Positions 4,191 through 46,400 of a DNA stretch of 64,000 nucleotides are shown piece by piece (position 1 is the stretch's first letter; every line of letters begins with the position of its first letter). Location of the stretch: the NCBI GenBank assembly GCA_015657535.1, contig JADHZB010000607.1:1-64000 (forward strand), read 5' to 3'. Both the position numbers and the translations under genes were made by a program. Source of the DNA: Nephromyces sp. MM_2019. Lineage: Eukaryota > Apicomplexa > Aconoidasida > Nephromycida. Below the pieces are notes generated by a model that worked only from the letters and a program-made list of their open reading frames with translations, did not search any database and was not told where the DNA came from.

Positions 4191-5364
4191 TGCTAATATG
4201 CTCAATGAAAAAAGCGGAAGCTTTCGGCTCTGACGTAATAAGCCTAACAAGATTGAGTAGAGAGCAAAAATACCCTAGTTATTGTAGCGGCTTTTTAGGA
4301 AGGATTAACAAGTGAAAAACGAGTTTTCTCCACAATAATGTGGTCAGCGCAATACGTAAAGCACAAAACATGCGCCTCAAGTACTGCGCTTGCCGTGATC
4401 ATATTATGTTAGAAAAAAAATTTTGAGCAGTCCATGAAATCACAGGTGTTCCGACCACCAAACTGCCATTTGTAATGTATGTACAGCTAGCAGCCTTCAG
4501 ATGAAGAAGTGAAGTTGTGAAACTACGTTTTGCCTTTATTAACACCCCAGGGCAGGTTTATGTACTCCTCTCGTTACTAAGCTTATGAAATGCTAAACGG
4601 ATCACTACGTAAAGCAGTGATATAGCGCTCTGTGCGTTTTTAGAAGAACAGGAAAAAGAGGAAGATACAGTCGCAGAAGAGAAAGATAATGAAGAAGAAG
4701 AGGGAGATAATGAAGAAAAAAAAAGACGATGAAGAAGCGGAAAAAGAGAAAGGAGAAGAGGAAAAAACCAAGAAGAGAAAGGCAATAATCAAGAAGATAA
4801 TACTCTTTCGAGAGCATACACTTATGCCACAATGGAGCAAATCTTCGTAGAGTGCCTCTCAGCTTGAAAGTGGTCCTAGTGGTAGTTGCAGGTTGATGTA
4901 TGTGCTCGTAGAAACATATCACCGCACAAGCGTTTAAACTCAATCTGTGCTTTTGCTTTGGTGTTGTAGCCTTTTGCTGTGTGTAAATGCATAATCCGTC
5001 TGCTAAACCTAGAACTTTTGCAATGTTGGGCTAGCATCTGCTGCGTGTGCTAAGGTGTTGCGCGCATACACTTTGTAGCTCTAATGCCGTACCTTGCAGT
5101 TTGTGTTTCAGCTAAATGGCTTCGCAGTTTATGCAGTAGCGTATCGAGGCACATCCTTTCCATGTTCGCGGCATACCTGTGACTTGGCGCTTTGTATCTG
5201 CCGCTCGAAGATGTTCCATTTGTTTTTTTAAATGTCGTCATCACCAATTGCTTTTGCTTCTTTTTTGTTACGTGCTTTCTGACATAGTGTGTGCTCCTAA
5301 TATTTATAGGGCCGCGGAATTTTTCACCGCATCAGTGGGTTTAAGACATCCTGTAAATTACAAT
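4191..5364. promoter_or_regulatory. Divergent intergenic region between the PP2C and Whirly-like genes
   Basis: This stretch separates two head-to-head genes and should contain both promoters. It holds a strongly purine-biased tract on the plus strand at about 4644-4800 (GAAGAA/GAGGAA runs). Short ORFs on either strand there are by-products of that composition. The last ~200 bases are open in the Whirly-like frame and could be a leader exon (see that gene). No core promoter motif could be assigned. Confidence 0.4.
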
Positions 5365-6777
5365 ATGGCGGGAAAAGGTTATATGAACGGGCGGGCTCTG
5401 GTCTCAAACTTATGGGATCGGACAACTTTTTCTGCTAAAAATCTTCGCGATCAACTTCCTTCGGTGTCGCTTGGAAGTAACGCCCTGTGCAGTCTATTTA
5501 GTGCGAAAAATGCGCCTTTTTTTACGACTTCATCATCAGCTTTCACTGGATACACTACGCCATATCGGAAAACAATGCCGCCCGCTTCGTTGTCGCATGG
5601 CTCCAATTGTTTAGGAAGCAGCTTTGGACAGTTTTCTCTAAATATAGAGGCTTTAAGTTTACGCTATTTCTCGGCGATAAGGGGCCTTTTTGCCGCTTAT
5701 ACCGAAGGTACCTGTGTAAACCACGATGATGAAGCTAGGAAGAATCATCGCAGGGGAGTAACAACTCGTGGATATTGCCTTGAAAACAGGACAGGCGTGT
5801 ATATCTCCTTTTTGCCTCTGCAGAATGCTGCATTTCGGATAGCTGCAAGGTCAAACTCTAGTTTTCCACGGGGAGGATCCTTACAAGGCTACTATTCCAA
5901 TAAGCCAGAGTTTGAAGATAATGGAATGATCAATCTTGGAAAGAGGAAAAGCATGTACCCTGGTGATAATGCTGCTCGGGAGCGGTTTTATGAGTCGAAT
6001 GGAAATGCGTTCGAAGCCATCAACCACGGAGCAGCTGACGGATACAGTACTACCCAAGAGAAGGGGATGCAAGGCAATCGTTTCCCTGGCACAACAGAAG
6101 GCGGGAGCTCATCAACTTTTCTCAGTAATCTGTGTTTCTTTGGTGTTTCCTCCATGGTGATGTTCAGGCCACAGCCTGCTACGTTCAGCCCATACGTTGC
6201 CTCCTCCACTGGAGACAGTACGGTATCGCAATCAACGCCGATATCAACTCGTTTCCAGATGAGCCAGAATGGTGTCTTATTCTGCTCATTTCTTCCACGT
6301 TTGAAGGGCTCTAGGCAGTTTGATAAGACCAAAAGGATAGACATTGCCATCCCTCCAACCAAGGTGGGAGGGTTTCTTTTGCCACTTCCGAACCTCGAGA
6401 CTACTTCGTTACCCAAGTTTTCCTATGCTATCGAATGCTCTTCTCAATGGTCTATTTTCTTGCAACTAGTACCTCACGGAGGAATTAGTAGCGGTAAAAA
6501 CGCCAGTCCAGGAGAGCTTAATTTGAATGACTTTAGGATGCTTCTTTCTGCTGTTCCGTCAGAACCTGGAATAGAACAGGGTAGCATCAAAGCTTCGGAA
6601 GAAGGCCTTGCTATGAATAACGAAGTAGATGTAAATAAGAGCGCAAGGCAGAGTTCTACTGGCAAATCTCCTATTACGGTGCCGCTCACTCTTGGTGAAT
6701 ACCGCACTCTTCAGTCTATGCTACATGCTGTGCTTCCTTCATTGTTAGGCTGGGCTGTTACCGGAGAAAGGTCATAA
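5365..6777 (+). CDS. Whirly-domain (ssDNA-binding) family protein, possibly organelle-targeted
   Basis: The C-terminal ~220 residues follow the Whirly fold family known from plants: an opening FRPQPATFSPYV like the family's 'EPRPPEF.P', then QNGVLFCSFLP with FDKTKRIDIAIPPTKVGGFL, and a closing block ITVPLTLGEYRTLQSMLHAV followed by LPSLLGW, where plant proteins read 'VPITKAEFAVL...LPHLIGW'. Plant Whirlies bind single-stranded DNA in plastids, mitochondria and nucleus. The first in-frame ATG is at 5365, giving 470 residues with no intron. The N-terminal ~110 residues are rich in Ser, Thr, Arg and Asn and poor in acids, as in transit peptides. The frame stays open upstream to about 5140 but only with a GTG, and encodes a hydrophobic run (QLLLLLFCYVLSDIVCA) that would suit a signal peptide if an unseen upstream exon supplied an ATG. 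The middle (about 100-310) is low-complexity. Family call fairly sure; targeting is inference. Confidence 0.75.
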   Translation: MAGKGYMNGRALVSNLWDRTTFSAKNLRDQLPSVSLGSNALCSLFSAKNAPFFTTSSSAFTGYTTPYRKTMPPASLSHGSNCLGSSFGQFSLNIEALSLRYFSAIRGLFAAYTEGTCVNHDDEARKNHRRGVTTRGYCLENRTGVYISFLPLQNAAFRIAARSNSSFPRGGSLQGYYSNKPEFEDNGMINLGKRKSMYPGDNAARERFYESNGNAFEAINHGAADGYSTTQEKGMQGNRFPGTTEGGSSSTFLSNLCFFGVSSMVMFRPQPATFSPYVASSTGDSTVSQSTPISTRFQMSQNGVLFCSFLPRLKGSRQFDKTKRIDIAIPPTKVGGFLLPLPNLETTSLPKFSYAIECSSQWSIFLQLVPHGGISSGKNASPGELNLNDFRMLLSAVPSEPGIEQGSIKASEEGLAMNNEVDVNKSARQSSTGKSPITVPLTLGEYRTLQSMLHAVLPSLLGWAVTGERS

Positions 6778-11900: not shown

Positions 11901-13788
11901 TAACCTTCAGCAGAAACGGCAGATTATCTCGCGTATATATTAAGACTCTAATGCTACACAATTTTAAAAAGATTACCTTCCTAAAAATGAGTTTTTCATG
12001 ACGAATCGACACAAAAAGTAATGAAATATGCAACACCTGTAGTTAATTTAATGTGATGAGGAGCATTCATGGATATAAGTAGACTACGGGAAAAGAGGGA
12101 TTTATCCCTGGCCCTGCAAAGTCATGGAGGGTATATCGAACAGAGTAAAACACCGCCAAAATTGAAGCAAGAAGGTATGATCAGACGCCACAAATGCAAA
12201 TTTAAGGTGAAGCAGATCAGAGCCCCCCTTTAAAAGCCAATAAAGAAGAGGCAATCACAAAAAACTTCGTGCTTCAAAGCGATTCTCCAGTTAAACAATA
12301 AAATACCACAAACAGCAGTATAAAATCTCTGTGATCTTTCAATATAGCTTGAGAAGCTATATTATCTTCTAAATAGGAAAATGTGTATTATGAAAAAACG
12401 ATTAAGATTCGTATTTCACCTTGTCTTCACGTATTATTGCGAAAAACTTACTTCTTCATGATTCAAAAGATCAAGCAACCACCAAATTAGCAGGTAAATT
12501 TGGTGGGAATAGAAGCCTTTCTTATACCAATCAAGATATGCTTATATATATATATATCAAACACTAAGAAAAAAAGGGGGGGTTTCATTGAGTCAGCTTC
12601 TTCAATTATAAACGGGAAAAAAAAACATATGTAACTTGGAAGCTTATGGTTCATACGTAGGCAGTACATTCAGAAAGACATTCTAGAGAAGATGGCAGCA
12701 GCATGGAGTTATTAAAAAGTATGTAAAGCAAGAAAAAACTTTGCAATTATAGCCGCAGATTGACAGCCTTTGCAACTATAGGAGAAAAAAAAGCAAAATC
12801 ATTTTTGTGTGTAGAAGAATTTGAATTCTTTCGGAAAGTGCTAGGTGGAAAGCCCAATATCACACTATAGTAGCCCATTATAACAAATGAAGACAAATTA
12901 TCAGAGCAAATCAAAACATACAAAAAGCTATGCGTAGAAAAAAATATGGAAGAGTCAATACCTTTGCAACTATAGAGGAACCGTAAGCTGGGATATTCGA
13001 GATCTCATTGTTTACGTCAAGCCACACATCGGTGCCATTCAGTTTGAGCTTGAAGCTGGAGAAGAAGAAAAAGAAGAAAGCGCAGGATTTCTGCTAAAAA
13101 AAGTTTTTGACTTCAAATTTAATATTAAACTTAAAATACTCGTACAGGCCAACAGCTGCATTATAAACAACTCATCCACAAAAGAAAAATGATTAAAAAA
13201 AAAACTGGCAAAATGCGCTTTGGCATCATTACAGGAGTTCCAATGGTTATGAGCAGGGATATGATGCATAGTTTAAAAAAATTCAGATATATGTTGAGCA
13301 TCTGCAATGATCTTCATACTAGCGCAGAAAGCAGCAAAATCGGCAATTCAAAGAACCCTCATTAACTAAATCCGTGGAAATTTACAATTTCATTGCAATG
13401 CAAAAGTAAGGAAGAGAAATATTTCCTCGAAGCCAAAAGTGACTTAAAAAGCGCGTATCAACCGCGAGATGTCATCAAATACATAAGACCAAGTGAAAAA
13501 CTACGATAGAGTTCGTTGTTCAAAGAATCTTGGTGTTTTCATACGGCCTTAAGGAGCTGCACCCGAGTTGAAAAGCTAATTCGAGAAAAGAGCAGTATGG
13601 GGGAGAGTGCATAATGTATATCTCAGCACAACCTACCGGAAGTGATACCTTCCAGGCAATGGAAAACTATACTTTATATCGCGAAGGGTGATCTCTGAAG
13701 CAGCCTTCTTTATAGCAAACACGTTTGGGTGCCCATTCTCATCTCTGTCACCCGGTATATGGTAATACACCAGCGTTTGCTTCTCCAT
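8946..13788 (-). CDS. DIX-domain-containing protein
   Basis: Four exons: 13637-13788 (ATG at 13788), 12962-13055, 10736-11180, 8946-9022 (TAA). They join in phase into 255 residues. Residues about 1-90 form a DIX-type domain: TLVYYHIPGDRDENGHPNVF, ITLRDIKYSFPLPGRYHFRF, KLNGTDVWLDV, IVAKVLRISW. DIX domains polymerise head to tail; in animals they organise Wnt signalling (Dishevelled, Axin). The rest is a low-complexity Ser/Asn/Gln-rich tail with motifs such as SHDDLLNVSLS and a charged end (YSEDEGKDSEKG). Donors are GTAGGT, GTATTG and GTAAGT; acceptors are pyrimidine-rich. Exons 1-3 are secure. The last exon was chosen because its phase fits and its composition matches the tail; alternatives are an in-frame stop at 10725 or a strong acceptor leading to an exon at 10452-10519. 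Similar stand-alone DIX proteins exist in apicomplexans as far as I recall; no function is claimed. Confidence 0.78.
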
Positions 13789-15072
13789 TTTAGGAGTACA
13801 TAGAATAATCCAACCAACAAGAAAAGGGGGTCTGATAAGAAGGTAGTCCAGTACAGAAGATGATGAAGCAGAAGCTAGTAAAATACTAATTTTTGGGGTT
13901 AAACAAAAATAAAGGAAGTTCTTTATAAATCGATTGGTTAAATAAAATCGAAAAAACCATTTCAGCATCAAATCATCAAGCAAAGTATGAAACGCATAAA
14001 ACTGGTGATTTACACTTACCCGAGAACCCGCAGCTCTCCAAAAAGGAAGAAAACGAACGAGAAGATCAGATGCTGACTCTGCGTTTCTTGCGAACCACAA
14101 AAAAAAGCGAGTCCTCTTAATGCCTTGAAGTTACCAAAGGAACTTGCCAATAAGTTTGGCTTATATTGCGCAGAAAGTGGAACTAACGAGATAAAAGCGC
14201 CATAAACAGGTGGTCAACTTAAGTGTAGGCTAACCTGGTGCAGTATCACCAGAAAAAAACCCACTGCAACAGATTAGAGAAGAAATTGAAATACGATAGG
14301 CTGCCACGTGAAGTAAAAGCGAGCGAAGGAAGGACCCGCTTATTATACTTTAAATAGAAGATCATGTGAAAGCACAAAAAAAAGGTAAAACCGCTGAAAC
14401 GTGGTGTGCATCATGACGAGCTGATGATGAAAAAAGTCGTGGGCAGAGTGTTTTGCTCCGCACAGCCCAGTTCATTAGGAGATGAAGATGAACCTGGCAT
14501 GGAGTTTCCAGGACAAAAATGACTTCATAGGTCGATCAGACATACGATGAGGAATAAATCAAGCCAAAATAAGGTTAGCGCGGCTTCGACGGAAATATAC
14601 TCGTAGGCTTTGGGCAATGTGCGTGGCGCAAGGACCTACACCTAGTCGGTCTAGGTCTGATCATTCGAATGTGTTGAACTTTCAAAAACAGCGCGCTAAA
14701 AGTAGCGGCAACGCAAGGGCCGATATTTCGACCTAAAAGGCTACGAATTTACATGAAAGCACGTCCGCACCAGACGAAAGTCATTTAGGAATAGAAGTAT
14801 TAACTGTCCCTAAGTATGCTTTGGCCATCAGAAGCTGGTTTGCATCATCCCACTCTGCGTACTGCCGACGGTCCTTGTGCTCTTCCGTAAGACGATCTCG
14901 CTGATTCCCGGTCATCTGATGTCCCGTTGTGAAGCATAATTCGTATTTTTTTGAGTTTTGGTTATTTTTACACCTTTGAAGTAAAATAAATTCATTCACT
15001 TGTTGATGAGTTCTTGTGTATTTTAACCATTTTTTACCTGCAAGGCTTCCTTCACACTTGATTCCTCTTCAA
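13789..15072. promoter_or_regulatory. Head-to-head intergenic region (DIX gene / conserved-protein gene)
   Basis: About 1.3 kb between two divergent start codons. A minus-strand frame is open upstream of the DIX ATG to 14100, but reads hydrophobic, unconserved-looking sequence and is probably 5' UTR or chance. The part from about 14400 to 14900 is GC-richer than its surroundings, as expected for a shared promoter. No individual element could be assigned. Confidence 0.35.
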
Positions 15073-20424: not shown

Positions 20425-23086
20425 TTAATCTTCTTCTTCAAAGAGGTCTTCAGCATTGCCTCCGCTTGTCCGCAAAAACTCATCCTCGTCCTGCAGTGTG
20501 TCTTCATCATCATTAAATCGCAGTAAGCGTCTCCTCTTTTCTTCCGGTCTATTTCCAGAGCTACTTCTATAGTTCCCACGAGAGGACCCACCAGGGGGAG
20601 CATCAGAATTCGCATTAGATGATGGCACAGCCTCAGATTCATAGCTTCGCTCTTTGCCATGAAGTTCTCCATTAGTTGAGCTGTGATCATCTTGTGCCCC
20701 ATCCTCTATATATTTCTCGAAATTATCTTCTATGTTACTAGTTAGTTGATTGGAACTCTTGAGATTGCTAGTACCAAGCACTGGTTTATTTACCTGGTAG
20801 CAATTATCTATCCAGGCACTGTATACATCGATGGCCACGTCATGCCTAGTCACGTCTACGCTATATGAAACACTGCAAATCCTGCACCAGAGATTTCCAA
20901 GCTCCCTTTGACGATCTCTGCATGGATTCACAAGATCAGAAAAAAAGATTATACAGCAGTCTCACTGGGAACCACAACACTCGAAAAAAGCTTAATCAAG
21001 CAGGCGATTGATTCTATTATCCAACTATGCGGGGGAAAAAGCACTGCAGCACGTGAATACCTTTGAAAGTAATAAGTGTGATGTACATTCACTACAGTTT
21101 CGATTAAACCACATAATAGAGTATTGGAAATATGATATCTCTATGCCTGATTATATAAAGGAGATTTTTGATAAGATATTGGATAAATTTGGCAATATAG
21201 ACACATTGGTTAGCAATGCCGTCACTGATCCATATATATGCAAATGCCAAATTTTAACAATGCCAAAAAAAAGTCACTAATGTGTGCGAATACGGAAATT
21301 AACAGCTCCAGCGGCTTTTTAGCTTATCAGCACTCAAAAATCGCTGGCTGTCAAAAATATAATTTCCTTACAGCAAATCAAATATAGATACAAACAATAA
21401 GTTCACTTAGGCAATAGATAAGGAGGCAATTACCATGCGTTTAAAGTACTAGCAGCAGGAGAAAAGTTGGATAAATTGCAAAAGGAATGAAAATGGTAGT
21501 GGGAAACTATTTCCCGTTGCAAAAAAATCTGGCCATAGGCACCAGCTGCCCAAATGCTCCACACTTAAATACTACGCACACTGAAGCCACATGAAGAATC
21601 AAATTAAAAATGCCTTCCTCTTATCATCTGCGAAGAATGAAATAGAGACAGCAGGATCTCTATTTTCCTAAATTATCTTGTGGACCGTTAGCATTCTGCT
21701 TTTATTAATTTGAACTAATTAATCGAATATCCTCCAAACGATTAAAAAACAAACAGTAAACTTTTAGCAACCATATGAATTAAATTTTTAATTTAGTTAA
21801 GAAAAATAATGAATGTGATACAAATTTAATCCCGAAAACATTTCTACAATCAGTGAAATGGGCCTACAAAAATTGAAACTTCTAATCCGGCAGTAGAAGC
21901 AAGCTATTACCAAAATTCACAGTCGAAAATACACGCAGTGGCAATTGGTTTAGCAGCAAAATGCTCGCAGAGTATGTGTTAATTCGCATCAAAAAACTAA
22001 ACGTAGCGAACTTCGCATTTAAAAATAATAAAAAGGGGTAGGACCAAAGAAAAACTGATTCTGAAGCCTTTAAAAAAAGAAGATTCAACGGCTTTTGTAC
22101 TCTGTTGATTCAGGATTCCACTGCGAAACCTTAGCCATGACAAAGATTGATGCTATAAAATAAGAGCGACCGCGACAGATACACTAACAATCTATGGCAA
22201 AAGCGTATTATTAAACTGTAAAAGAAATTAAGTGCCTCACTGGTTCTCCTTGTGAGGTGCTAAAAAAGCTTAAATTAATCATGTTTACTAATTGAATAAT
22301 GGCAATAAATTTAAAACCAGGCCGAACTCAAACAGTACGTTAACCTCCAAGTATGCAAGCTGAAACAGAAAAACGTTCGGGAATAAACTCCGGAGAAAAT
22401 TCTATTTAAAAAATAAACTCAGGCTGCGTACTCTACGCTAGAGGCAATGATAGATCGTGAACCATATCATCTACCGAATATTGAAGTGCTAGCTAAGCAG
22501 CTTCAATCGATACATGCTAATTATCGTGCTGCCCTAAAATAGATTTCTCCAGTCAATTTTGTATAATAAGTGGATTACCAGAGTCACCCGAGCATCGATA
22601 AAAGTTTGCACGACTCAATTCCTTTATATATGCCGGCGCATCTTTATATTCACAATATAGTAAATTGCATCCGGCATATCTCAGGCTCAAAAGTCAGTAG
22701 TTTACATCCTCTCAGTTGAATGCTGCATCCCTACTAACGTTTAATAGCCCACTAAACGATACATTTTTGCAAAGCGCGCTGCAGGCTGTTCAAAACTATC
22801 ATTTTTGCAAAACTTCGTAATTTTCATATCGTAGCTCAGTAAAACCATACTCAAGCTGCTTAATTTTAAGGAAGCGGCAATTCTCAGTGACAATCGGTGG
22901 TCCTAACAATGAAGGCAGATGAAAATTTATAACAAGTAGCACATTCCATTCTTCTATAATCATCTTTACTTACATCTTCACTTCAATACTTTTTGTATGA
23001 TTGCAGAAGGGGCAGTTAAACTCCTTGTCCAGCTTTGGAACTTTAGCAGACTTCGGGGGAGCCTTGCGCCCCTTTCTTTTTCCCAT
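20425..23086 (-). CDS. ELOF1: Transcription elongation factor 1 homologue (ELOF1/Elf1)
   Basis: Small zinc protein that travels with RNA polymerase II and acts in elongation and transcription-coupled repair. Exon 1 is 22974-23086 (ATG at 23086): MGKRKGRKAPPKSAK, then the first zinc knuckle C25-P-F-C28 in FNCPFCNHTKSIEVK. Exon 2 is 20425-20917: DRQRELGNLWCRIC with C49/C52, followed by the family hallmark IDVYSAWIDNCYQVN. The donor GTAAGTAAAG leaves two bases that the acceptor at 20917 completes, restoring the zinc ribbon (CX2C-20-CX2C). The product is 201 residues; human ELOF1 has 83 and yeast Elf1 about 145. The extra length is a polar, acidic tail ending DDEDTLQDEDEF...LFEEED, like the acidic tail of the yeast protein but longer. 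The ~2.06-kb intron contains an antisense SDR remnant. Confidence 0.93.
20980..21350 (+). pseudogene. Short-chain dehydrogenase/reductase remnant (DHRS4/FabG-like), antisense in the ELOF1 intron
   Basis: Three pieces of an SDR protein occur in the right order but not in one frame. About 20989-21058 reads SLIKQAIDSIIQLCGGKSTA, like the pre-beta3 region. At 21077-21280 comes CDV, then EIFDKILDKFGNIDTLVSNA, matching the family's 'kFG.IDiLVsNAa'. At about 21298-21345 comes INSSSGF..AYQHSKIAG, matching 'SS..Gf...Y..SKaA' with the catalytic Tyr-X3-Lys pattern shifted. The glycine-rich cofactor site and the C-terminal half were not found, the spacing between pieces is too short, and stops separate them. 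A decayed copy is most likely. A nested gene with very small introns cannot be excluded. Confidence 0.5.
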
Positions 23087-30504: not shown

Positions 30505-32556
30505 TTACAAATTCATCATCCTCACAAATCTAATAAAAATTGCCAAGGCAAGCACAAAGATAGCGCTAGTTGTCACTACTACTAGTTTAAACGCAAATCT
30601 GTCGCCCTCGTAACCGTTTCTCAAGTTCATGCCGAAAACACCGGCCACGGCACCTATAAACCCAAAAATCATCCCCAAAAAATCCAAAACCAATTCGCTT
30701 TTTAAAGCAGTATTTCGAACAGAAGAAAGATGTAGCTCCATTATTTGTAGGGCGTGATCCAATTCATTGATTGTATGCGAGGCAAAACTCGAGATCAAAG
30801 ATGCTTCTTGATGGTAAAACTCCAATATTCGCAGGAAAGTATCTCCATGCACTTCGCTAGTTTTTCTGCTATCTTCCACAGATAAAGAGGTTAAATCGGT
30901 CATCTCAAAAGGCTGAGAAGGCTTTGACAGAGAGATAATCTCTTGCTGTGAAACTGGAAAAATATTCGCGTTACTGTGAGGGAGTTTAAAGCTGCTGTTA
31001 CCAAATAACTTTGCCGATGTCGAAGCCACGGCCTTGGTACCTCTAAAAAATAGTAAGGATTCAGATTAAGCAAAATCCATAAAGAAGAGAATAATAAAAG
31101 TACGGCCAGAGAGGAAGCTGGTAAAAATTATCATCAAAAATACTCGCAAAGCAGATCTTTAAACTACAAACAGTGCATTAAGTTGAGACTACACACACAT
31201 ATAACCATCAAAAGCACTAAAAAAGCTTGCATAATATCACAGAAGTGGAAGACACATCACTCATCACTTTTTTGATCTTTGAAATTATAAGTAAAAGACT
31301 TTTCTAAGAAAAAACTACGTTTTAAAATTCTCTTAATCGCCTTACTTCCATTCTCCTGAACTTTGGTTTGTCACTGATGAGGAGGCAAAGGCATCGCGGG
31401 CAGAGGAGGCTTCCTTTACCCAAGTCGATCCTTTTTTACAGAGACTGCGGTGTAGCTCTAACTCCCGTATAAGCTGGGCAGCATGGGCAGACCCACTAGA
31501 AGGTTGTTTCATAGCTGCTACATTTTGATGAGATCCCATTAAATTGACTCTTACGTAGTCTTCAACGCAATAAAGTATGTCAAGCATAGCCCTTTCCAAA
31601 GCAAACGTATAGTCACATAGAAATGAAAGGCGGCTTCGCATATAACTAACTTCATGAAGCCGTGTAAATGTCTTTGACTTTGAATAGATATCTACAAGGA
31701 TACTCCTCGAATTTTCCTCAAAATGGGCTAAATTACCTTGAATACAGCTACAAAATTCAGATAAAATTATATCCAATGCTTGAAGGTGATAAGGAGTATC
31801 ACTCAAGAATGAGGAGCTCTGCCTACCATCTGAGCTGATTGAAGTGCAGCGACTGATGGCTGAAGGCACACAGGCTGTAAGAGAATTATCACGTTGAGTA
31901 TCAATTCCGGTAAGAAGTGCAGATGCCAAGTCACCGCATTGAAAAATGGAACGCGATGAAGCTGGATAGAAATCACTATTAATTAGGGTAAACAAGAGTA
32001 CAGTAGGAAGTAGGATGCAACGAAAAGGTGGGAGACACACCACAAGCATGTTATGTGACCTTTCATGTATGTATGGCCTAATAGTCGCATGAGGGGATAA
32101 TAATGAGCGTATATCTTGTATCATAAAGGGTTGCTGCAAGTTGATCGCTTCATCATATGTATCGAGTCCTGGAACCACTGTGTTAGAGCCAGCTTGAGTT
32201 CCCCGTGCAGATGCAGGACTATTAAGGTTTGACTGATAAGGTGAACCTGGAGCAGCAGATAACGAAGATGGTGTAGACGAACCCAAGTAATGACGTTCTA
32301 CGCAGCGAAGTAGCCTGGACTTGTCGTATCTACTACATTGTGGAGCAGAACCAGGGGTAAGCTGTATAACCTCAAACGTCCGAGGATGTTCTAGACTATT
32401 CTGCTGGCGATTGAACTCTTTAGGTGGCTCTGAATAATTCAGTTGCTGATTGTCCAGCAATGCGGAATATTCAAATGCTTTAGATTTCGTAGATTCAGCA
32501 TGGAAAACCTCTGAGAACGAAAGTTTTTTACCCGGAGCAGCAGGAGAAGCATTCAT
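30505..32556 (-). CDS. CorA/MRS2-type Mg2+ transporter family protein
   Basis: Divalent-cation (usually Mg2+) channel family with two C-terminal membrane helices. Exons 31346-32556 (ATG at 32556) and 30505-31042 join in phase (GTAAGG donor, tttttag acceptor) into 582 residues. The diagnostic GMN motif is intact in VFGMNLRNG near residue 540, at the end of the first membrane helix (LDFLGMIFGFIGAVAGVFG); the second helix is FKLVVVTTSAIFVLALAIF, and the protein ends in a short basic tail. The helical region before it (TINELDHALQIMELHLSSVR) fits the long stalk helix of the family. The N-terminal ~180 residues are a Ser/Pro/Asn-rich extension, and another low-complexity stretch (about 205-265) interrupts the soluble domain, making the protein longer than typical CorA (about 320) or MRS2 (about 400-470). 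Likely membrane: mitochondrial inner or plasma membrane; not decidable here. Confidence 0.9.
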
Positions 32557-35500
32557 TCTGCAAGCTTCAGTTTCTATTTATACTTTGCAAAAAAAAAATG
32601 CAAGTATAGGATTGATTTCTTTCTCGAGGTATGGTGCCTCAATGTAACACCACCATTAGGCAGAGATTCAAGGTGCCTCGCATGAAGTAGCGCAAGGCGG
32701 ATGCAATTAAATGGGGCAAAAATAAAACATTTCGTGAGTTACACGCACATGAAACTACAAACAGAAGTTGAAGACGCAACAAAACACCTCCCGAATAATG
32801 AAGGGGTCAACAGAGAGCGGTGAAAAAAGTACATCAAGATGCGAGTTACCCCCTTCACCACGTCGCCAGTAAATAAAATTGTTACAGCAACTTGTAAAGG
32901 CTGCATAACATCGTAAACTCCAGCAATTCCTGAGAAAGAGCCACGGATAATCAGTGTACACGTAAGCCAATTTCCTCTAAAGCATACGGATAGCTTAAAA
33001 AATATATGTATAATCTTTCTTGTCACTATTTCACCGCTACATCAAAGAAAAATTGCATGGCAGCTGAGGAAGAATTAATCCGCCCTCTGTGATAACTTTT
33101 TTATGACAGAGGTTCCTAAAGCAAGACGGAATCACTAGGAATATGAAGCCTACACAAGGGTCAAAAGTGGGGTCACCGTTTTAATGACACTATCGTACTG
33201 GGGTATGCACGCGGCGCATAAGATTTTCCTCCAGTTTCTTCTGATAAAAAGTCCTCTTCCTGCTTATAACTGAAGGAAGGGATATTTGAAGCTGCGCAGC
33301 GCAACAGACAATAGTCTTAACAGAGATGTTCAGGCAGAAAATCATCTCGCATTGCCAGTATCTTCAATATTTTAGAAAGGTTCCGTTTACTAAATACTCC
33401 ATCCTATATTAACTAACAGGTATGGCATAGCAGTAGTAGCACCTAACCGACAAGTCACACCATACCACACTGCAAAAAAATTTTATGTAATTACCATTTT
33501 GATTGTATCTTATGTCAATGGGAAGTGGTGGACTACCCTCTGCAGAAGCACCAAGAGATACGGTAGTACTATGACCCACAAGAAGCTAGTGAACTACACG
33601 TTGAAAAGGTCAGGGTGAAGCTAGATAGGACATAACACTCTATAGGCGTGAAAAGTGAAGTTATTACCACGTAGTTTGCATATATTAAGAAATTCATTAT
33701 TAATAACTTCACTGTAGAAAGATTGATACTAGAACAAGTGTGCCTTGAAGGGAAGATGGGGTAATACGCAGGTTATTTTACGGGCGACCGGCAAGTGGAA
33801 TACACGCTCGTGAGTATCGCTGGTGTGGTTGTGTGTAGTAGGTACTAGGATACTTTTTCCCTATGGTATGTAGAAGAGGGAGTAACTGCAGGTAATTTGA
33901 GTATTCAGGCAGAAAGGACAGTTCAAAGCGTCGCAACTTTACCTACCGGCTTGGACCAAGTTTATTGCCGTTGAATATGTACAAGTCAAAATTTTAGAGT
34001 ACTAAGACTTCTTTAGTAGGTACCTAATTTGGTGAAAGTTAGGATAGTTTTCGCTGAATATCGTAGAAATTTCGGCTCAGTGGCAGTTGCATGATTTTTG
34101 CACTTTTCCAACAACTGCTTTAACTTAAAAATAAACCAGCAAAACTAGTAACGCTGGTTATTGTCCCCACCTTGTGTTTAGATGCCTCGTAGAACTATAT
34201 ATGCCGTATAAAGGATGGGCAGGAAGCAAATCATGTGAAGTCCAAGGTGCCAACCTCGACAGTTGTGATAAGTGAAGTACCTCCATATTAATATCGAAAG
34301 GCAGTAGGGAGCAAATATCGCTGGTATATATATATGTAAGAAAAGCCCTGGTTGCTTGGTCATGCTAAAAGATTAGGAGCAGCCATTAGTAAAGCTAAAA
34401 TTTGTTTACAAAAGATCGGCGTGGAACTTTGCCAGAATCTGCTTTGGTGAGTTGCACTCAAAGTGAAGAAGATATGCTAGCCTCTTTTATACGGCGCTCA
34501 ACGCAGGGTATTTAGGGTCTCCAGTTAATCCTATAATGTGAAAATAGCTTTTGATTTTAAAGGATTATCTCTAGTCTTTTGTGGCAGTGAAACACCAAAT
34601 TTTAGTGATTGAGCATACTTAATCTGATATTTTCTCGTTATAAAAAGCATTCAAGTAGTGGTAAGATACTTTGTTTTTAAAGAGTAAATCTCAGAGTAAG
34701 TGTTCTATCACTACCTGATTGTATTGGTATACGAAAGTTTTCTAGTATACTTTTATTTAAAATGCAAAATAGTACTTACAATTGCAATAAAATAAGCAAT
34801 AATATCGCAATTTTCTTAAGAGAATTTAGTGGTTTCGATGGGATTCTATGACTCCTCGCATGTTCGTATAATCATCGCCTTCATTTAAATTGGCTACTGT
34901 CTTTTCTGAAGCTAGGAAAAGCAGTAGCTTCCTTTGCCGCCCAGAACCTGGACTCATAATTCTTCCTGAATACACTTCCAGCATAGGTTTTTGTGCATCT
35001 TATTAATCTGCGCAAACTTTATGTAAATTCAGCCTTACGCAGCATTTGATCCTATGGTAAATGGTGATATAAAAAGCCTAGTGCTTCGTAAACGGCTAGT
35101 CCTTTTACATTGATTGCTTAAAAAGACAGCACACAAGAGTAGCCAAAGTGTTTAAAAACACAGACATAATATGGGGGCGAATGCTCACGTCAGAGTGCAC
35201 AGGCGTCCTGTATTAAACCACAAACCTTTCTCGAAGAACTTAGATTAAAATTTGGCAATTTTTAAGCCAATTTTCATACAAGCATCAAATTGGAGCAACC
35301 GCATTCACTGTAAACCCTTCATTACGAGAAGAAATCAGCAATAGGTGGATAGTATACTACACAACCCCAACGAAAGATCTTAGGCTCTTCAATCTCCTAC
35401 TAACGAGAGCAACAGCATTTCAGCATAAGACAGCAGCATTCCGGGCGGCTTTCAAGCCTGCAACATGCATTAGACTAGTTATCTTAGCATGCAAACCTCG

Positions 35501-37405: not shown

Positions 37406-40400
37406 TTACACAGAATATATTCCAGAAATTAAAGTCTTGATTAGAGGGTCACGTGCTATTTGAGTATAGGTGAGGATCTCCTGTCGATAAGCCTGGAATC
37501 TCTGTAGGGTATCATTGGCAACTGCAGAAAATACATGATTACTAGCAAAAGTGTTAAGCCATATTTATAATAAGGACGATGTTCACATTTACCAAGCAAA
37601 ACATATGTGAAACGTATTGCAAGCCTGAGGTACAACCGATAGGGCAGCCCCATCATCACACACACCACTCTCTTTTCACTCAAAAATTACCATTAGTAAG
37701 CATAGTGAGGTTTTCAAGTATATAAGGACGAAAACCCACGCCTTCAGCCCACGGGTTCAGCTCCCGAACAAGACGAACCAAGACAAGCTGAACAAAAGTC
37801 GCAAAAATCTGCTTTGTAATACAAAACGTCAAACTTTTCTGAAACTATGAAAAATAACGAGCTTAAAAAGCCACAAGATTCATTAGAAAATTCTTAAACT
37901 GCTTTATTTCAGTAGATAAAGCATAAAAAAAAATTATGTATAAATAAACTATATATTCTCAGTCGCTTTAAGCTTATTTTTTAACAAAATTACATCTATT
38001 TTACTAAAGAATATACATAATTTCTTAAGCCTGCTTTTTTGCATATTTCTATATCTTTAAATTTTATTAAAGAGCACCGAAAAAAGGTTCATTCCAGGGT
38101 TAATGCATAAGAATTGCAAGAACACCACAAATCGCTAGAAGCCCAAAAAAAAAGAATGAAGCAGTCCATTACAGTAAAGACAGCCCTTCCACAATGCACT
38201 AAATGCAGTACACACAAGTTACAACAAAAGAAACTATAGATCTGATAGCTTAAGCGGCGAAAATAAGGGTTTATGTCTGGCAGTAAGCTAGCAACCTAAA
38301 ATCCCAAATGGCGTAACTTCATCTTTCATCCCAAAAAATACTTTCTCATTCATAGTGTGACATAATGAGCATCTTCACTGGTTTTCGCCGAAAATTATAG
38401 TTGAAAACCCATGTTCTTAGCATTATTTGAAGATGGTTTTCCATATCATTAGCAATATTCTCAAAAGATTTCCAATCCAACAATGCATGTAACCACAAAG
38501 AGTTATGCAGACAGAGACATACACACAGACACGCAGACAGACACACAGCCAGACACACAGAGACACAGAGACAGATATGCACACAGAGACACAGACACAG
38601 ACAACGACGGACAGACAGATACACAGATAGAGACACAGACGGAGATACACACACAATAACAGACACGCAATCGCACAATCACACAGACACACACACACAC
38701 ACACATTTAATAATAGCACTACTAAAAAAGGATGCTACATGGTGGCGAATGGCACACCAAGCACACAAAAGAGCACTCTGCAAAAATTCCCACCGCGCTC
38801 CAAGCAGTATCGTACAGAGTTCTCCGGATCACATTATCATCTGTTCATTCCAAAAAAACATCAAAACATACAAATTTTAAAGAAAAATCCAGTTTTTCAT
38901 CTTTCAGAGAAAAAATGCTAGATGAAGCAGTCCAAGCGAAAAGAATAGCAATAGTTCGACAATCAATCTGCAAGACGAAAAAGCGCTTGCTAAAGCGCTT
39001 TAAACGAATTGAAAAGAATACAAATCGCACCAAACAGCAGTAAAAGAAATCTACAGACCCAAAGAGGCAAAATATCATCAAAAAAGACAGAAATGGGATC
39101 AGAAAAAACGCAGCCTACAAAGTCACAAAACGACCAAAATAATGCAAGCCACCAAATTTTTTAATAAGTAGGCAGAATCAGCCATGCTCAATATATATAG
39201 CCGCGGAATCTTTCGTATATGAGCAGCTAAAAAAGCGATAAACCTCACAATATTAATGCCTGGCAGAAGGTAATTCAAGCATAAAGAAAGATAAACATAA
39301 TTTCAAACAGATTTAAGCAGAAAAAATATTTCTCCACAAATAGAAATTGCCAACAAAATTGAAGTTTTTAAAGACTTTAAAGGTAGAAGATCTCGACGTT
39401 TTAGCATCACACAGTGGAATCGATAATAACATCTTCAACAAGCTTCAAATACCTCAAGATAAAAAACATTCAATTTTATACTAGATTAGAAAATAGCTCT
39501 TTAGATTCTAATAAATTAATAAACAAAAGAGAATGAACAAAAAGGCATTCAATTTGACCCAAGAAACTATTCCTTTAAAATGCTAGAAAACTATTGAGTG
39601 AATGCACACACACAAACACATAAATCAAGAGGCAATATTAGTAAAAGGGTAAAGAAAATCGAATACGCAGAAGCGATAGTGGTGGAACATAGGATACACC
39701 TCAAAATTAGAGGTAATCGCATGAGTGGAAAAATAAGAGTTTGGAAGTAAGAAAAAAAGTTTGGCAAAACATCTAAATTAGCAGTTAAAAAGATACTTTT
39801 TCTTGTTTTATAAAATGAAGGAAAAAACAAAAACTCTCTCTGCCATTCAAGTGTAGAAGCTAGACAGGAGCAGCAAGAATATAGAAGAGCATGCAATGTG
39901 GCAAAAAATGTAAAGGTTGGCTTTAAATTTACTGTAGTATCACGCAAACAACCGCCTTAAACCTAAAATCAGAGAGAGAGTTGGCAGAAAATCCCTGTCC
40001 TTAGCAGAAGCTGCCTGCCTCTAGCGAAAACTACCTCTCAGCAAAAAGTTACTATCCAAAATCATGAGAAGCTAAAGAGTTAAGCGTATAGATAATGTCG
40101 TATAAGAACACACACAGATTGAAGCCTCACTTACATATATCTAAAGCGTTAGCGAGACACATCCATTGAGTAACCCCTTTAAGATATAAAGTTCCCAACA
40201 CAATTGAAATGAAAAACTCTTCAGAATTCGCAAAGGCAGCAAAGGAAGAATATTCTCCAAATGATCTGTTTGGAATTGAACGCTGAAGTCGAGAGAAATA
40301 CGCACACACATTAGGACAAGAGGCAGCATAAAAGACATCATTTATTGAGAAAAACAGGCCAAAAAAATCCGCTAGAAATGTCAATTATCTGTCAACATCA

Positions 40401-43400
40401 CACACACGCATGCACACAGACACACAAAGACACAGACACACAAAGACACAGACACACACACATTAAGCAGATTTTAATTAAAAATATAAATTTATAAGTT
40501 GTAAAAACTCCACAAAGTATATTACAATACAAAAAAAGCTCTAAAACATCACGAAAGAAGCAAAACTGCTGCATCTTCATTTAAGGAGGCTGTTTACGCT
40601 TCTTCAAAAACTTCTTTATCAAGCGAAACACACAAGCTTTACCCGATCAGCTGCCATGTCTCTGGGCATACTATCACCGCCAGCCACTCTAAAATCACCT
40701 TCTCGCAGCGAAGAAACTCCCCCAAAACTTCCATCATCAAGCCTAGCTCCAGTTAGCTTGGATAGCTGTGCCTCATCATAGTAGATAATCGAAATGTCTT
40801 GCTTGATGTAGGCCAAGAGAAGACGGTGTAAGTCCCGTAATCTACGAGACATTGCAGCCGTGTACTCCATCCAAATCTGAAAGGTTTCAAAAGTCAGAAA
40901 CGCACACACTCACTAGATCAAACAGAGGGTAGTATTGGGAAAGGGTGAAAAAAGTTTCACACACACACATGCTGAGGTAGCTTGTAGAAGAGTGAAAAAA
41001 AAAACCAAGTTAGAGAGAGAAACTCTAAATTTTTGGGAAAAGCTTTGCAGATGAGATTGACTATTAGCATATAGATACGTCTTTATCATGTAGAAAGTGA
41101 AAAGGGTGGCAACTAACCAAAATGGGCGAAAGATAAAACGCAAAAATCTTCCCTTCATCCACACAGAAAACATCTAAATTTATGTGAAACATTGCACTTT
41201 TAGTCAAATTTTTTGGTGAGAAGCTAGCAAACACTAGTTCAAGCAAAAGTAAAGAAACATTGCCTATAAACAGTTAAGAAACCAGCGAAAAAAACAAAGC
41301 AAAAAACTCTAAACCCTTAACCAAGCCCACAAATACATATATCTTCAATAGCATTACTGGCATGATGATGCTTTATAAAAAACACCTTCAGTATATCAAA
41401 CTAATTACTGAAGAAGTAAGAAGCAAGCCAGCAAAGCCGAGCTTTCATATGCATATTGGGTAGCAGCTGCTTGCAATTACCAAAAAAAAGAAAAAATCGG
41501 CAATTCATCAGATATTTGGTAGGCCATTCAAAAAAAAAGGCAAGAAGCTCAGATTTTATTGAGTAAATAACGTAGATATAATCCCTCCAAAAGCACTTCA
41601 TTTTAGCTAAAAATGCAAAATGTTTTGGGAGTTTTTCCATCACATCACGCTATTATGAAGATTTCAAATATGAGGTAAATCTGGTAGAAACACGAGCAAC
41701 CTGAGAAAATTACTTAAACGATATACTACCTAATATGTCAAAAAAAGCCATTAAAAGAAGATATTTTTAGGTGCAAATACATTGCAAATGAGAGTATCCA
41801 CACACGCTTTGAGAAAAAAAATGCACATAAATTTCCACACCAAATTTGGAGGATGATACTGCTTGAGCTTAACCGAAAGAAAATCAACTAAGCTAATCGC
41901 TAAAGAGAGCCTAGGCACACCCACTGCAGAGGGTAGAGGCGAAACGATGTTAAAAACTGGCTTGTAGCTTTTACTATACACACAAAGCTCTACACTAAGA
42001 GCTAGCATCGTTGCTCAGTTTAATTCTTATACTTCTATCAATCAGGTGAAGCGTAACTAGCACCGAGAAATATCTCAAGTTCATGCACACAACACAATGA
42101 TTTGCATGATCGAGTGTGTGCGATTTCGGGTCCGTAACTGTACTCGATTGCTTTGCGAGCATGTGGTCTTGTGAGTCTGTAATTCAGCATTATACACAGT
42201 TGTGAGCATATACCACAAAACATCGAAGGAAGCAAGCAGCTATACTCCTAATACAACACTCTCTTAAACTAAGACGGCATCTTGTCTAGGTGCTTGGGAG
42301 AAAGCTTGCAGTATAAAAAAGTACTAGCGTAGCATCTTCCAAAAACGAATGACATTTGGTCGTTAATAAGGTAAATTCAGGGAATTCTAGCAAATACACA
42401 CGCATATATATGCCTAGACACACGGGCACACACCGACATACTCATATANNNNNNNNNNNNNNNNNNNNNNNNNNNNNNNACACACGCATATATATGCCTA
42501 GACACACGGGCACACACCGACATACTCATATAACTACATACACACATATATACCTAGAAACACACACACGCATATATATGCCTAGACACACGGGCACACA
42601 CTGACATACTCATATAACTACATACACACATATATACCTAGAAACACACACACGCATATATATGCCTAGACACACGGGCACACACCGACATACTCATATA
42701 GCTACATACACACATATATACCTAGAAACACACACACGCATATATATGCCTAGACACACGGGCACACACCGACATACTCATATAGCTACATACACACATA
42801 TAACCACACAGAAGTGCACCTACGCATACACAAAACGAACAAAAAAAAACTTTCTTTTCAGGCAGACTTCAATTCAATGAGAACTTACGTATTTATCTTG
42901 CAGCATGCCGTGAAACAAGGAATCTGTTCTCAAGTCATTCTTCAACAAGATTGACGTGAGATCATAGTTAGCGTTAAACTTCTTTTCTGGAGACAGAGAG
43001 GTTTCCCACCACCAAAACCTCTCTAAGGGAGCTAAGCCTTGTTTTCTAATAGCTTCTTTTAACCAATGATATTGCTGTGGCTGCTGAGGAAGTTTCCATT
43101 TGCTCGCAATAGAATCAAAGCAAAGAGGAATATCCTTTACCGAGAGATACATTATCCAGGCGACAATACACTGAAAAAGTGGGGATATAACGGGTGGGTA
43201 GTGGGGGATAAACTAATCAAAAGCTCGAAGCTCAGATAGTTGAAAGTAGTCAAACATGCTAACACACACACAATCAGGAAACACCATGGTTCTGTGGGAA
43301 GCTAGCTTGTGACTAGGCAAAGTAAAAAGTAAAATAAAGACTCGTTCAGAAAGCTGCTAGAGAATACTCTAAATGATGCTCCTAATGCTAGGAAATTGAA

Positions 43401-46400
43401 GACAAATAGAATGGATTAAGCTGCATATCAAATACGTACTGAAAAACAAAAGTATGATGATGCAGGCATCGAATATTCTTTAACTTCTCAGGCCTTCAAA
43501 CGGCCTTCAAAGAGAGAAACTGTTCGACGTTTCCAATATTAGCACACACACACACACACACACACGCACAAATATTGAAGGAATAACCAAATAGATAGCC
43601 TTACCTCATCTTCAAAACAAAGATCACTCAATAGTGGAAACTCCTTAACTGATACTAAGTTCATTTCACTCTGAAACCAAAAAAAAATTTATCAAGAGCT
43701 GCATATTAACTGTTAGTATCGCACACAAAACACACACTTAATATCACACTCAATATAACACGCAGCACACACTCAACATCACAAACACACACACACACAC
43801 ACTAAATCACAAACACACACACACACACTAAATCACAAACACACACACACTACATCACATACACACAAAAACGTTTATCCACAGCAATCAATAAGATCTC
43901 AAGAAAATTTTATACTCTATTCCTCTTTGAATCAGCGTAAATTGAACGTGTGTGTGTTATACTATTCAACCAAAAAATCAGTGAAATAGAAAAAGTGCAT
44001 CAAAACACACCAGAGAACGGATAAGCAGCTAAATAAGGTATAAACCGGTCTATGCACCCAATTTTCCTTTTACAATCGTGATCCAAAGGGAGGTATATTT
44101 ACAGTTCTCCTGTACATGCTAATCTCAACAAAAACGGAGGTGTACCTACAGCTCTCCTATGCACACTGACCTCAGTCATTAAGCAAAATTATAGCAAAAA
44201 AAAAAAGACTTGGTAAAATAACAGCTAAAAAATGATAGCTTTAAGAATGTATGAAAAGAAGTATACCAAAAAGAACAAGTAAAGCTACCAAACGATCAAG
44301 ACAAACCGCAAAAACTAACCATGTGAGTGCAAGTTGTTTGTGTGTGAATTATGTAATTAGCGTGTGCGTGTGGATTTTGTGAGAAAAATGTCATGGAAAC
44401 ATGAGAGAAATACACACCAAAAGCTCACCAAACAGGAAATTGGTGAAATAAGCACACAAAAAGCTTACCAAATCTCTCAAAGAACTCTGAATTAGCACAT
44501 TGTGAAGCTCCATCATCGTAATAGTCCACAAAACCAAAAGAATCACCAGGGGATAGTGTATCCACATACTGAGAGTTTTCAATATTCAAAAGAAACCAGA
44601 GATTTCTTGAAAAAGTGAAAAAAACATCAGAAAATTAGAACAAGTCTAGTGCTTCCTTCAATTATGTGTGCGTGTGTGCGTGTGTGCGTGTGTGTGTGTG
44701 TGCGTGTGTGCGTGTGTGCGTGTGTGCGTGTGTGCGTGTGTGCGTGTGTGCGTGTGTGCGTGTGTGCGTGTGTGCGTGTGTGCGTGTGTGCGTGTGTTCC
44801 TCATTTCCTATGATATACCCTTAGTTAACCCATCTCTGAATGCTTTGCCCTCTTTTCTGCCCTCTCGCTTCTCTTCCCTGTACCTCGACTAAAAGTATGA
44901 GCCTTCATCACTAATCAAAGCTGCAGCTCTCTCCTCTTTCAAGGACCGTTAACTATGCTAAGCGCGAAAAGCTCGCGAGAAGGTGAAAAAGCCTGGCCAT
45001 ACACCTTACTTGACAACGAACCAGTTCGTGCAGGTGTGTGTGTGGATCAAACTTTTATATAAAGTGCTAGCCTGTTGCAGCTATACAATCGGCTTTCTTT
45101 AGCTACCTACAGCTATCAGGTTCTTGTGTGTTAGCCTCTTGCAGCTATAGACTCCATTCATACAAGGATAAAGCATCGAATATGCTAAATACCTAGCAGC
45201 ACCCTATCATTTCTTTTTGAGATTCCAACGTATTTTATGATTTATCCTAGAAATGAAGAAGCATCATCAAGATTCCTCCAACCAACCATCCAACCAGAAA
45301 AATGCTCACAAGCAGGCCCAAATGCCAAATTCTTCACCTCTAATCACTAGTATCAAGGAATCACATGAAAATTATCAAAGAGAATGGAAACTAGGACTTT
45401 TTCGCACACATTGCCCTCCTCGAAAAAAAAGGACGAAATCATCTAGTGTGCAAAATCATATATAGAAAGCTCTTGATAGCAATTCTTAGGGTATTCTTTG
45501 CTCATAAATTTCCTGTGTTTTACCTCCATATAAGAGCTCTTTATCTATCATCTACGACTATCATTTTAGTAAGCCAAAGCATACAGCTTACAATATAGCA
45601 AGCAAACTTTCACAAGAGGATTCAATAAAGAATCCCTTCACGGGCTCTAATTTATACACTCTATGATATAAATGAAACCACAGAGAAATTGGAGTAGTCT
45701 ATACACACGCATATATAGCTTGGAACATGTAGAGGCTGGAGATTAAGAGGAGAAGGTATTTCGATGATAAGGCCCAAAATAGGGCAAAGCTAGGTAAAAT
45801 CAAATGTATACGTGTGCCTAGTCTCTGTAAAAGTAGCGTGAAAGTGTTGGATCTTCATGATAGTTTATATCCAAAGGTACCTTTAACAAATTAGCATTAA
45901 ACTCTAGCATCTTCATGATATTTCACGCAAAAAAAACAAATATTTGGTGCTCAGCAGGTAAAATATAGCAGCATTACCTTTCTAGTCCAAGGGATAGTGT
46001 ATCGCTATGAAAATATCCCGGAAGAAACAAAAAATTTACCGCCATATCAAGTGATTTTGCCAAGTTATTTTTCCAAGTAAATGGCAGCAATAGGTAAAAG
46101 AGAAATTTCATCAAAAGAGCAACGTATCGCACCAAGCCAGCAGCAAGGATGCACAGGAAAAGCTGAGACGCTCCCTGTAAAAAAATTCCATAAAAAAGCT
46201 AGTAAAGGGTAAGAAGAACACACAAACACACAAACACACAAACACACAAACACACAAACACACAAACACACAAACACACAAACACACAGATTCAATACCT
46301 CCCAAAGCCAAGGTAATACTTTAAGACTATAACAAACAAAACCTACAAACGCAAGTCAATTTCCTGATATTTTATTCATTTCATAAGAGAAAAACACTTC

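Follow-up and report, generated by a model that had tools for sequence, protein, structure and literature searches.

The Whirly-like gene and its sequence homology

We analyzed a window of 64,000 nucleotides on the + strand of contig JADHZB010000607.1, from the assembly of Nephromyces sp. MM_2019 (48.3 Mb, 1,127 contigs); all coordinates refer to this window. An open reading frame (ORF) at positions 5365 to 6777 (+) encodes a protein of 470 amino acids (aa) whose C-terminal domain, residues 258 to 470 (213 aa; 6136 to 6774, +), resembles the Whirly family of plant proteins and follows a leader of ~257 residues. Residues are counted from the ATG at 5365, the first in a stop-free frame of 545 codons (5140 to 6777), which gives 470 codons. 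The window is sparse in long frames (4 frames of at least 200 codons per 64 kb), and a search of the whole genome with the 470-aa protein returned a single match, its own locus.

To compare the domain with known Whirlies, we built a profile hidden Markov model (HMM) from 120 listed plant Whirlies, the best 120 of 891 matches in a search described below. This plant-Whirly HMM scored the domain at 26.4 bits (E = 2e-10, one sequence) and the whole protein at 23.2 bits, while the best of 5,000 shuffled sequences reached 7.8 bits. The gene's own frame aside, none of the other 409 ORFs of at least 50 aa in the window ranked among the 15 best-scoring rows. When the domain from position 6223 onward was searched with phmmer against 177,635 distinct PDB sequences, 6 of 6 matches at an E value of ≤10 were Whirlies (best E = 4.9e-4); the whole protein retrieved the identical six (best E = 0.0041), and a WHY2 query found those six plus one weak unrelated match. 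HHalign against 37 of the 120 plant Whirlies gave a probability of 82.5%, from the closing block alone, compared with ≤4.5% for 150 shuffles, 0.1% for the reversed domain, and 0.8% for the leader. The similarity to Whirly thus exceeds chance (26.4 versus 7.8 bits; all six PDB matches Whirly), and by these sequence statistics the C-terminal domain is shown to be homologous to Whirly, as the original prediction had proposed for this part of the protein.

Residues 1 to 250 of the leader contain 47 serines plus threonines, 20 asparagines, 27 lysines plus arginines, and 18 aspartates plus glutamates. The leader, described earlier as Ser/Thr/Arg-rich, is indeed rich in serine and threonine, and in asparagine as well, but its net charge is only modestly positive. 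Upstream of the ATG, the frame stays open for 75 codons (5140 to 5364, +; P = 0.018 under a local second-order Markov model) that include the hydrophobic stretch LLLLLFCYVLSDIVCA. One reading of this stretch is a signal peptide and the other is translated intron, from the pyrimidine tract at a 3′ splice site, exon and intron both being compatible with it; the DNA of the extension resembles a pyrimidine tract ahead of the AG at 5286 to 5287. A search for a spliced upstream exon that would supply an ATG found none with a GT[AG]NG donor, the only donor type tried. A hydrophobic stretch followed by a leader rich in serine, threonine, and asparagine would fit a two-part apicoplast signal.

Domain anatomy and structure model

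The protein shares with the plant WHIRLY family (PF08536: WHY1, WHY2, WHY3, StWhy2, and p24/PBF-2) the order of the conserved blocks, the predicted order of strands and helices, a middle F-x-P...G-x-R-x-[YF]-D pattern, and a closing LP-x-x-x-GW helix. Two blocks align in order with WHY1, WHY2, WHY3, p24, and StWhy2, at residues 290 to 338, with RFQMSQNGVLFCSFLPRLKGSRQFDKTKRIDIAIPPTKVGGFL, and at residues 436 to 465, which read ITVPLTLGEYRTLQSMLHAVLPSLLGWA. The middle block (6244 to 6378, +) corresponds to modeled strands 2 to 4 and the first helix, retains F-x-P, G-x-R, and D, and has mean predicted local distance difference test (pLDDT) values, over 10 residues, of 60 to 82. The closing block (6670 to 6759, +) comprises strand 8 and the second helix and contains LPSLLGW (6733 to 6753); it is identified by sequence matches, by the model, and by the HHalign result given above. 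Between them lie modeled strands 5 to 7 (6421 to 6558, +; 10-residue means of 38 to 51), whose placement in the model differs from that in the sequence alignment, and a linker (6565 to 6669, +; 30 to 48), both of low confidence.

The opening block (6136 to 6186, +), GVSSMVMFRPQPATF against plant KGKAALSVEPVLPSF, was positioned through the alignment without a supporting local score and coincides with a modeled strand. Its GVSSMV (6142 to 6159) stands at the place of the plant KGKAAL motif by choice: alignment A5 was picked for that, and A1, A4, and A6 put the block elsewhere. The earlier claim of opening, middle, and closing blocks in order therefore stands for the middle and closing blocks, LPSLLGW included, while the position of the opening block depends on the alignment.

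The 52 plant rows have 56 columns with at least 95% conservation; the Nephromyces protein has the identical residue in 21 of these and a similar one in 9. Kept residues (model numbering) include F110, P112, G116, R118, and D121 and, in the closing block, P241, E246, P259, G263, and W264. Lost are KGKAAL (replaced by GVSSMV), the W following D, and most of EFFHDP; changed conserved positions include W to K122 and Q to I126. The protein also differs from plant Whirlies in its low identity (~25%), its ~257-residue leader, its score below the Pfam cut-off, and its length, with 206 residues from the opening block to the GW of LPSLLGW versus 147 in WHY2 and p24.

A structure model was built with plant Whirly rows in its alignment and hence leans toward the Whirly fold. 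It showed the Whirly order of four strands and a helix, twice (mean pLDDT, 53.5), and Whirly crystal chains were its best match, with PUR and MRP ranking lower in each of the two structural comparisons. The model thus supports a predicted Whirly fold. The two sheet-helix units anticipated by the original prediction appeared in the expected order, although at low pLDDT and with plant rows in the input.

Host genome, neighboring features, and origin

The assembly contains 64 AP2-domain matches, 44 of them above the cut-off, and strong sufB matches occur on three apicoplast-type contigs (34.9, 25.8, and 28.1 kb). Pieces of the 34.9- and 25.8-kb contigs are AT-rich, and their long frames extend when TGA is read as Trp; by eye, we take these frames to be rpoB, rpoC, and sufB. 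A gcpE gene is present in pieces on one contig, and the alpha-tubulin of the assembly looks coccidian. An apicomplexan genome, as originally proposed, is supported by the AP2-domain matches, the sufB contigs, and the gcpE pieces. The sufB proteins of the 34.9- and 25.8-kb contigs differ from each other, which suggests that the sample may hold more than one lineage; coinfection by several Nephromyces species is mentioned in the available part of one report (PMC6320678).

Domain scans of the window's frames identified Elf1 and DIX only. The Elf1 zinc-ribbon gene (about 20797 to 23083, −) has its halves ~2 kb apart and is hence split by an intron. An exon at 13633 to 14127 (−) encodes the first part of a DIX domain (PF00778; E = 2e-7; 31.2 bits versus a cut-off of 22.2), a domain known mainly from animal Wnt signaling and plant polarity proteins. 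Two frames at 30508 to 32577 (−) resemble a CorA/MRS2-type magnesium transporter with a GMN motif, at Pfam scores under the cut-off (MRS2-like, E = 0.034; CorA, E = 0.35). Simple CA/GT-rich repeats occupy about 38346 to 46355, with ORFs of ~90 to 150 codons on both strands whose translations are rich in histidine and threonine or in cysteine and valine.

Searches for relatives with the protein's own sequence (region 270 to 470; lengths 258 to 822) returned 0 of 511 candidates at an E value of ≤10, and the query itself was also unlisted. A mixed profile found 891 proteins at the same threshold among 4,526 candidates. The best 120 of the 891 all carry PF08536 and, where named, come from land plants, some rows being unnamed; the other 771 may include algae or protists. 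When the first row of the mixed profile was lengthened, 0 of 7,990 candidates scored at an E value of ≤10; plant proteins of such lengths should match, so the added leader probably spoiled this search, and we give it no weight. No relatives were found in viral and prokaryote contigs. These searches say nothing on the absence of the gene from other apicomplexans.

We found no description of an apicomplexan Whirly in the portions available of the open-licence literature on Whirly in apicomplexans, alveolates, and red algae. Whirly is called plant-specific in the accessible text of one review (PMC9070903), and excerpts of two papers trace it to the green lineage and describe red algae as lacking it (PMC4166229, PMC11135702), as do those of a third with respect to red algae (PMC5010701). 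An algal table, as excerpted, gives 6 of 7 species without Whirly, and the accompanying text names Chlamydomonas reinhardtii as having it (PMC4827209). Since red algae are reported, in these excerpts, to lack Whirly and its origin is placed in the green lineage, inheritance with the red-algal plastid, as first suggested for this gene, finds no support; the gene may instead have been acquired from a green source, or be older and have been lost repeatedly elsewhere.

Proposed role and alternative explanations

The explanation that we favor, and hold to be probable, is that this nuclear gene encodes a divergent Whirly-like protein that would bind single-stranded DNA (ssDNA) or RNA in an organelle as a tetramer. 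The long leader would carry the protein to a DNA-containing organelle, the apicoplast or the mitochondrion. Four subunits would pack through their C-terminal helices, the LPSLLGW block, and ssDNA or RNA would be held between neighboring sheets of the tetramer; the bound nucleic acid may then be guarded from faulty recombination, or RNA processing may be aided. The simplest reading would be an ssDNA/RNA chaperone that works as a tetramer in the apicoplast or mitochondrion. According to the parts available of PMC9070903, plant Whirlies have peptides that target them to organelles and can bind both DNA and RNA, and in higher plants neither ssDNA binding nor the assembly of tetramers into hexamers occurs without KGKAAL. 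With this motif gone, the 24-mers mentioned in the original prediction are unlikely here. Loss of 24-mer assembly is thus likely, and loss of ssDNA binding possible. The protein would probably remain a tetramer, perhaps like the green-algal Whirly-like proteins that lack KGKAAL. According to the available text of PMC9070903, KGKAAL is absent from the Whirly-like proteins found in green algae and in Marchantia; those of Ostreococcus, Klebsormidium, and Marchantia, compared by description only, are single copy and lack the motif, as here.

Several observations weigh against this explanation. KGKAAL occurs nowhere in the 470 residues, and the excerpted review (PMC9070903) makes it necessary for ssDNA binding in higher plants. 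PF08536 scored the domain alone at 13.7 bits (E = 0.057), under the Pfam cut-off of 23 bits; the whole 470-aa protein had no match in Pfam, and the Pfam Whirly model had none over the whole genome. Because the score falls under the curated cut-off, we call the protein a Whirly-like homologue rather than a filed family member. The structure model, with its mean pLDDT of 53.5 and other rows that are all plant Whirlies, is biased toward that fold, and a single-sequence model (pLDDT, 33.6) was uninformative and set aside. The limited searches described above, in which the best 120 of 891 matches were listed, showed no non-plant relative. Finally, the genome has a canonical SSB gene, split by introns.

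The last of these points, together with the replacement of KGKAAL by GVSSMV and the altered conserved positions (W to K122, Q to I126), would suit a Whirly homologue repurposed as a mitochondrial RNA-binding or ribosome-associated structural protein that has lost ssDNA binding, the SSB being available for the ssDNA task. Green-algal Whirly-like proteins likewise lack KGKAAL, however (PMC9070903, as excerpted), and the PDB search yielded no sequence match to any ribosomal chain; we regard repurposing as unlikely. Membership in another branch of the fold group (PUR, MRP1/2, or PC4-like), with a likeness to Whirly that is convergent or at the superfamily level only, appears highly improbable: all six PDB sequence matches were Whirlies, and neither the kinetoplastid MRP1/MRP2 proteins nor PUR-alpha gave a sequence match, each scoring under Whirly in the structural comparisons, though there the model leaned on plant rows.

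The contig might instead come from a contaminant, an alga or another protist, in which case the gene would not be apicomplexan. The window showed no identified apicomplexan-only protein, its GC content is ~37% versus a pooled 34% in AP2 loci, and the pooled dinucleotide distance between the window and AP2 loci is 81 versus 39 between the window's halves. Individual window segments, however, lie 55 to 128 from AP2 loci, within the mutual spread of those loci (40 to 304; a weak test, with 20 loci, some overlapping). The gene is also internal to an 81-kb contig that carries the split Elf1 gene, and the assembly has no homeodomain match, a weak point since 0 of 14 control genomes matched either. 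On balance, contamination seems very unlikely.

Returning to the organellar Whirly-like protein, we found no HU (PF00216) match in the whole assembly, compared with matches in 9 of 14 control genomes, although introns or missing sequence could hide HU. Apicoplasts of related organisms use HU. A bolder proposal, which we regard as rather doubtful, is that Whirly is not an invention of the plant lineage and that a KGKAAL-free form, overlooked below cut-offs in plastid-bearing apicomplexans, serves as an apicoplast nucleoid protein where HU is not found. The protein is of a known kind in a real and surprising place, and its mechanism is one that we infer. If confirmed in this single-celled symbiont of animals, a relative of Toxoplasma, it would widen the known spread of the Whirly family, and its presence would call either for an earlier origin followed by many losses or for acquisition from a green lineage. 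It would provide a new candidate for organelle DNA or RNA handling in Apicomplexa, and since the family is recognizable here under the Pfam cut-off, a search in other apicomplexans, chromerids, and dinoflagellates would be worthwhile.
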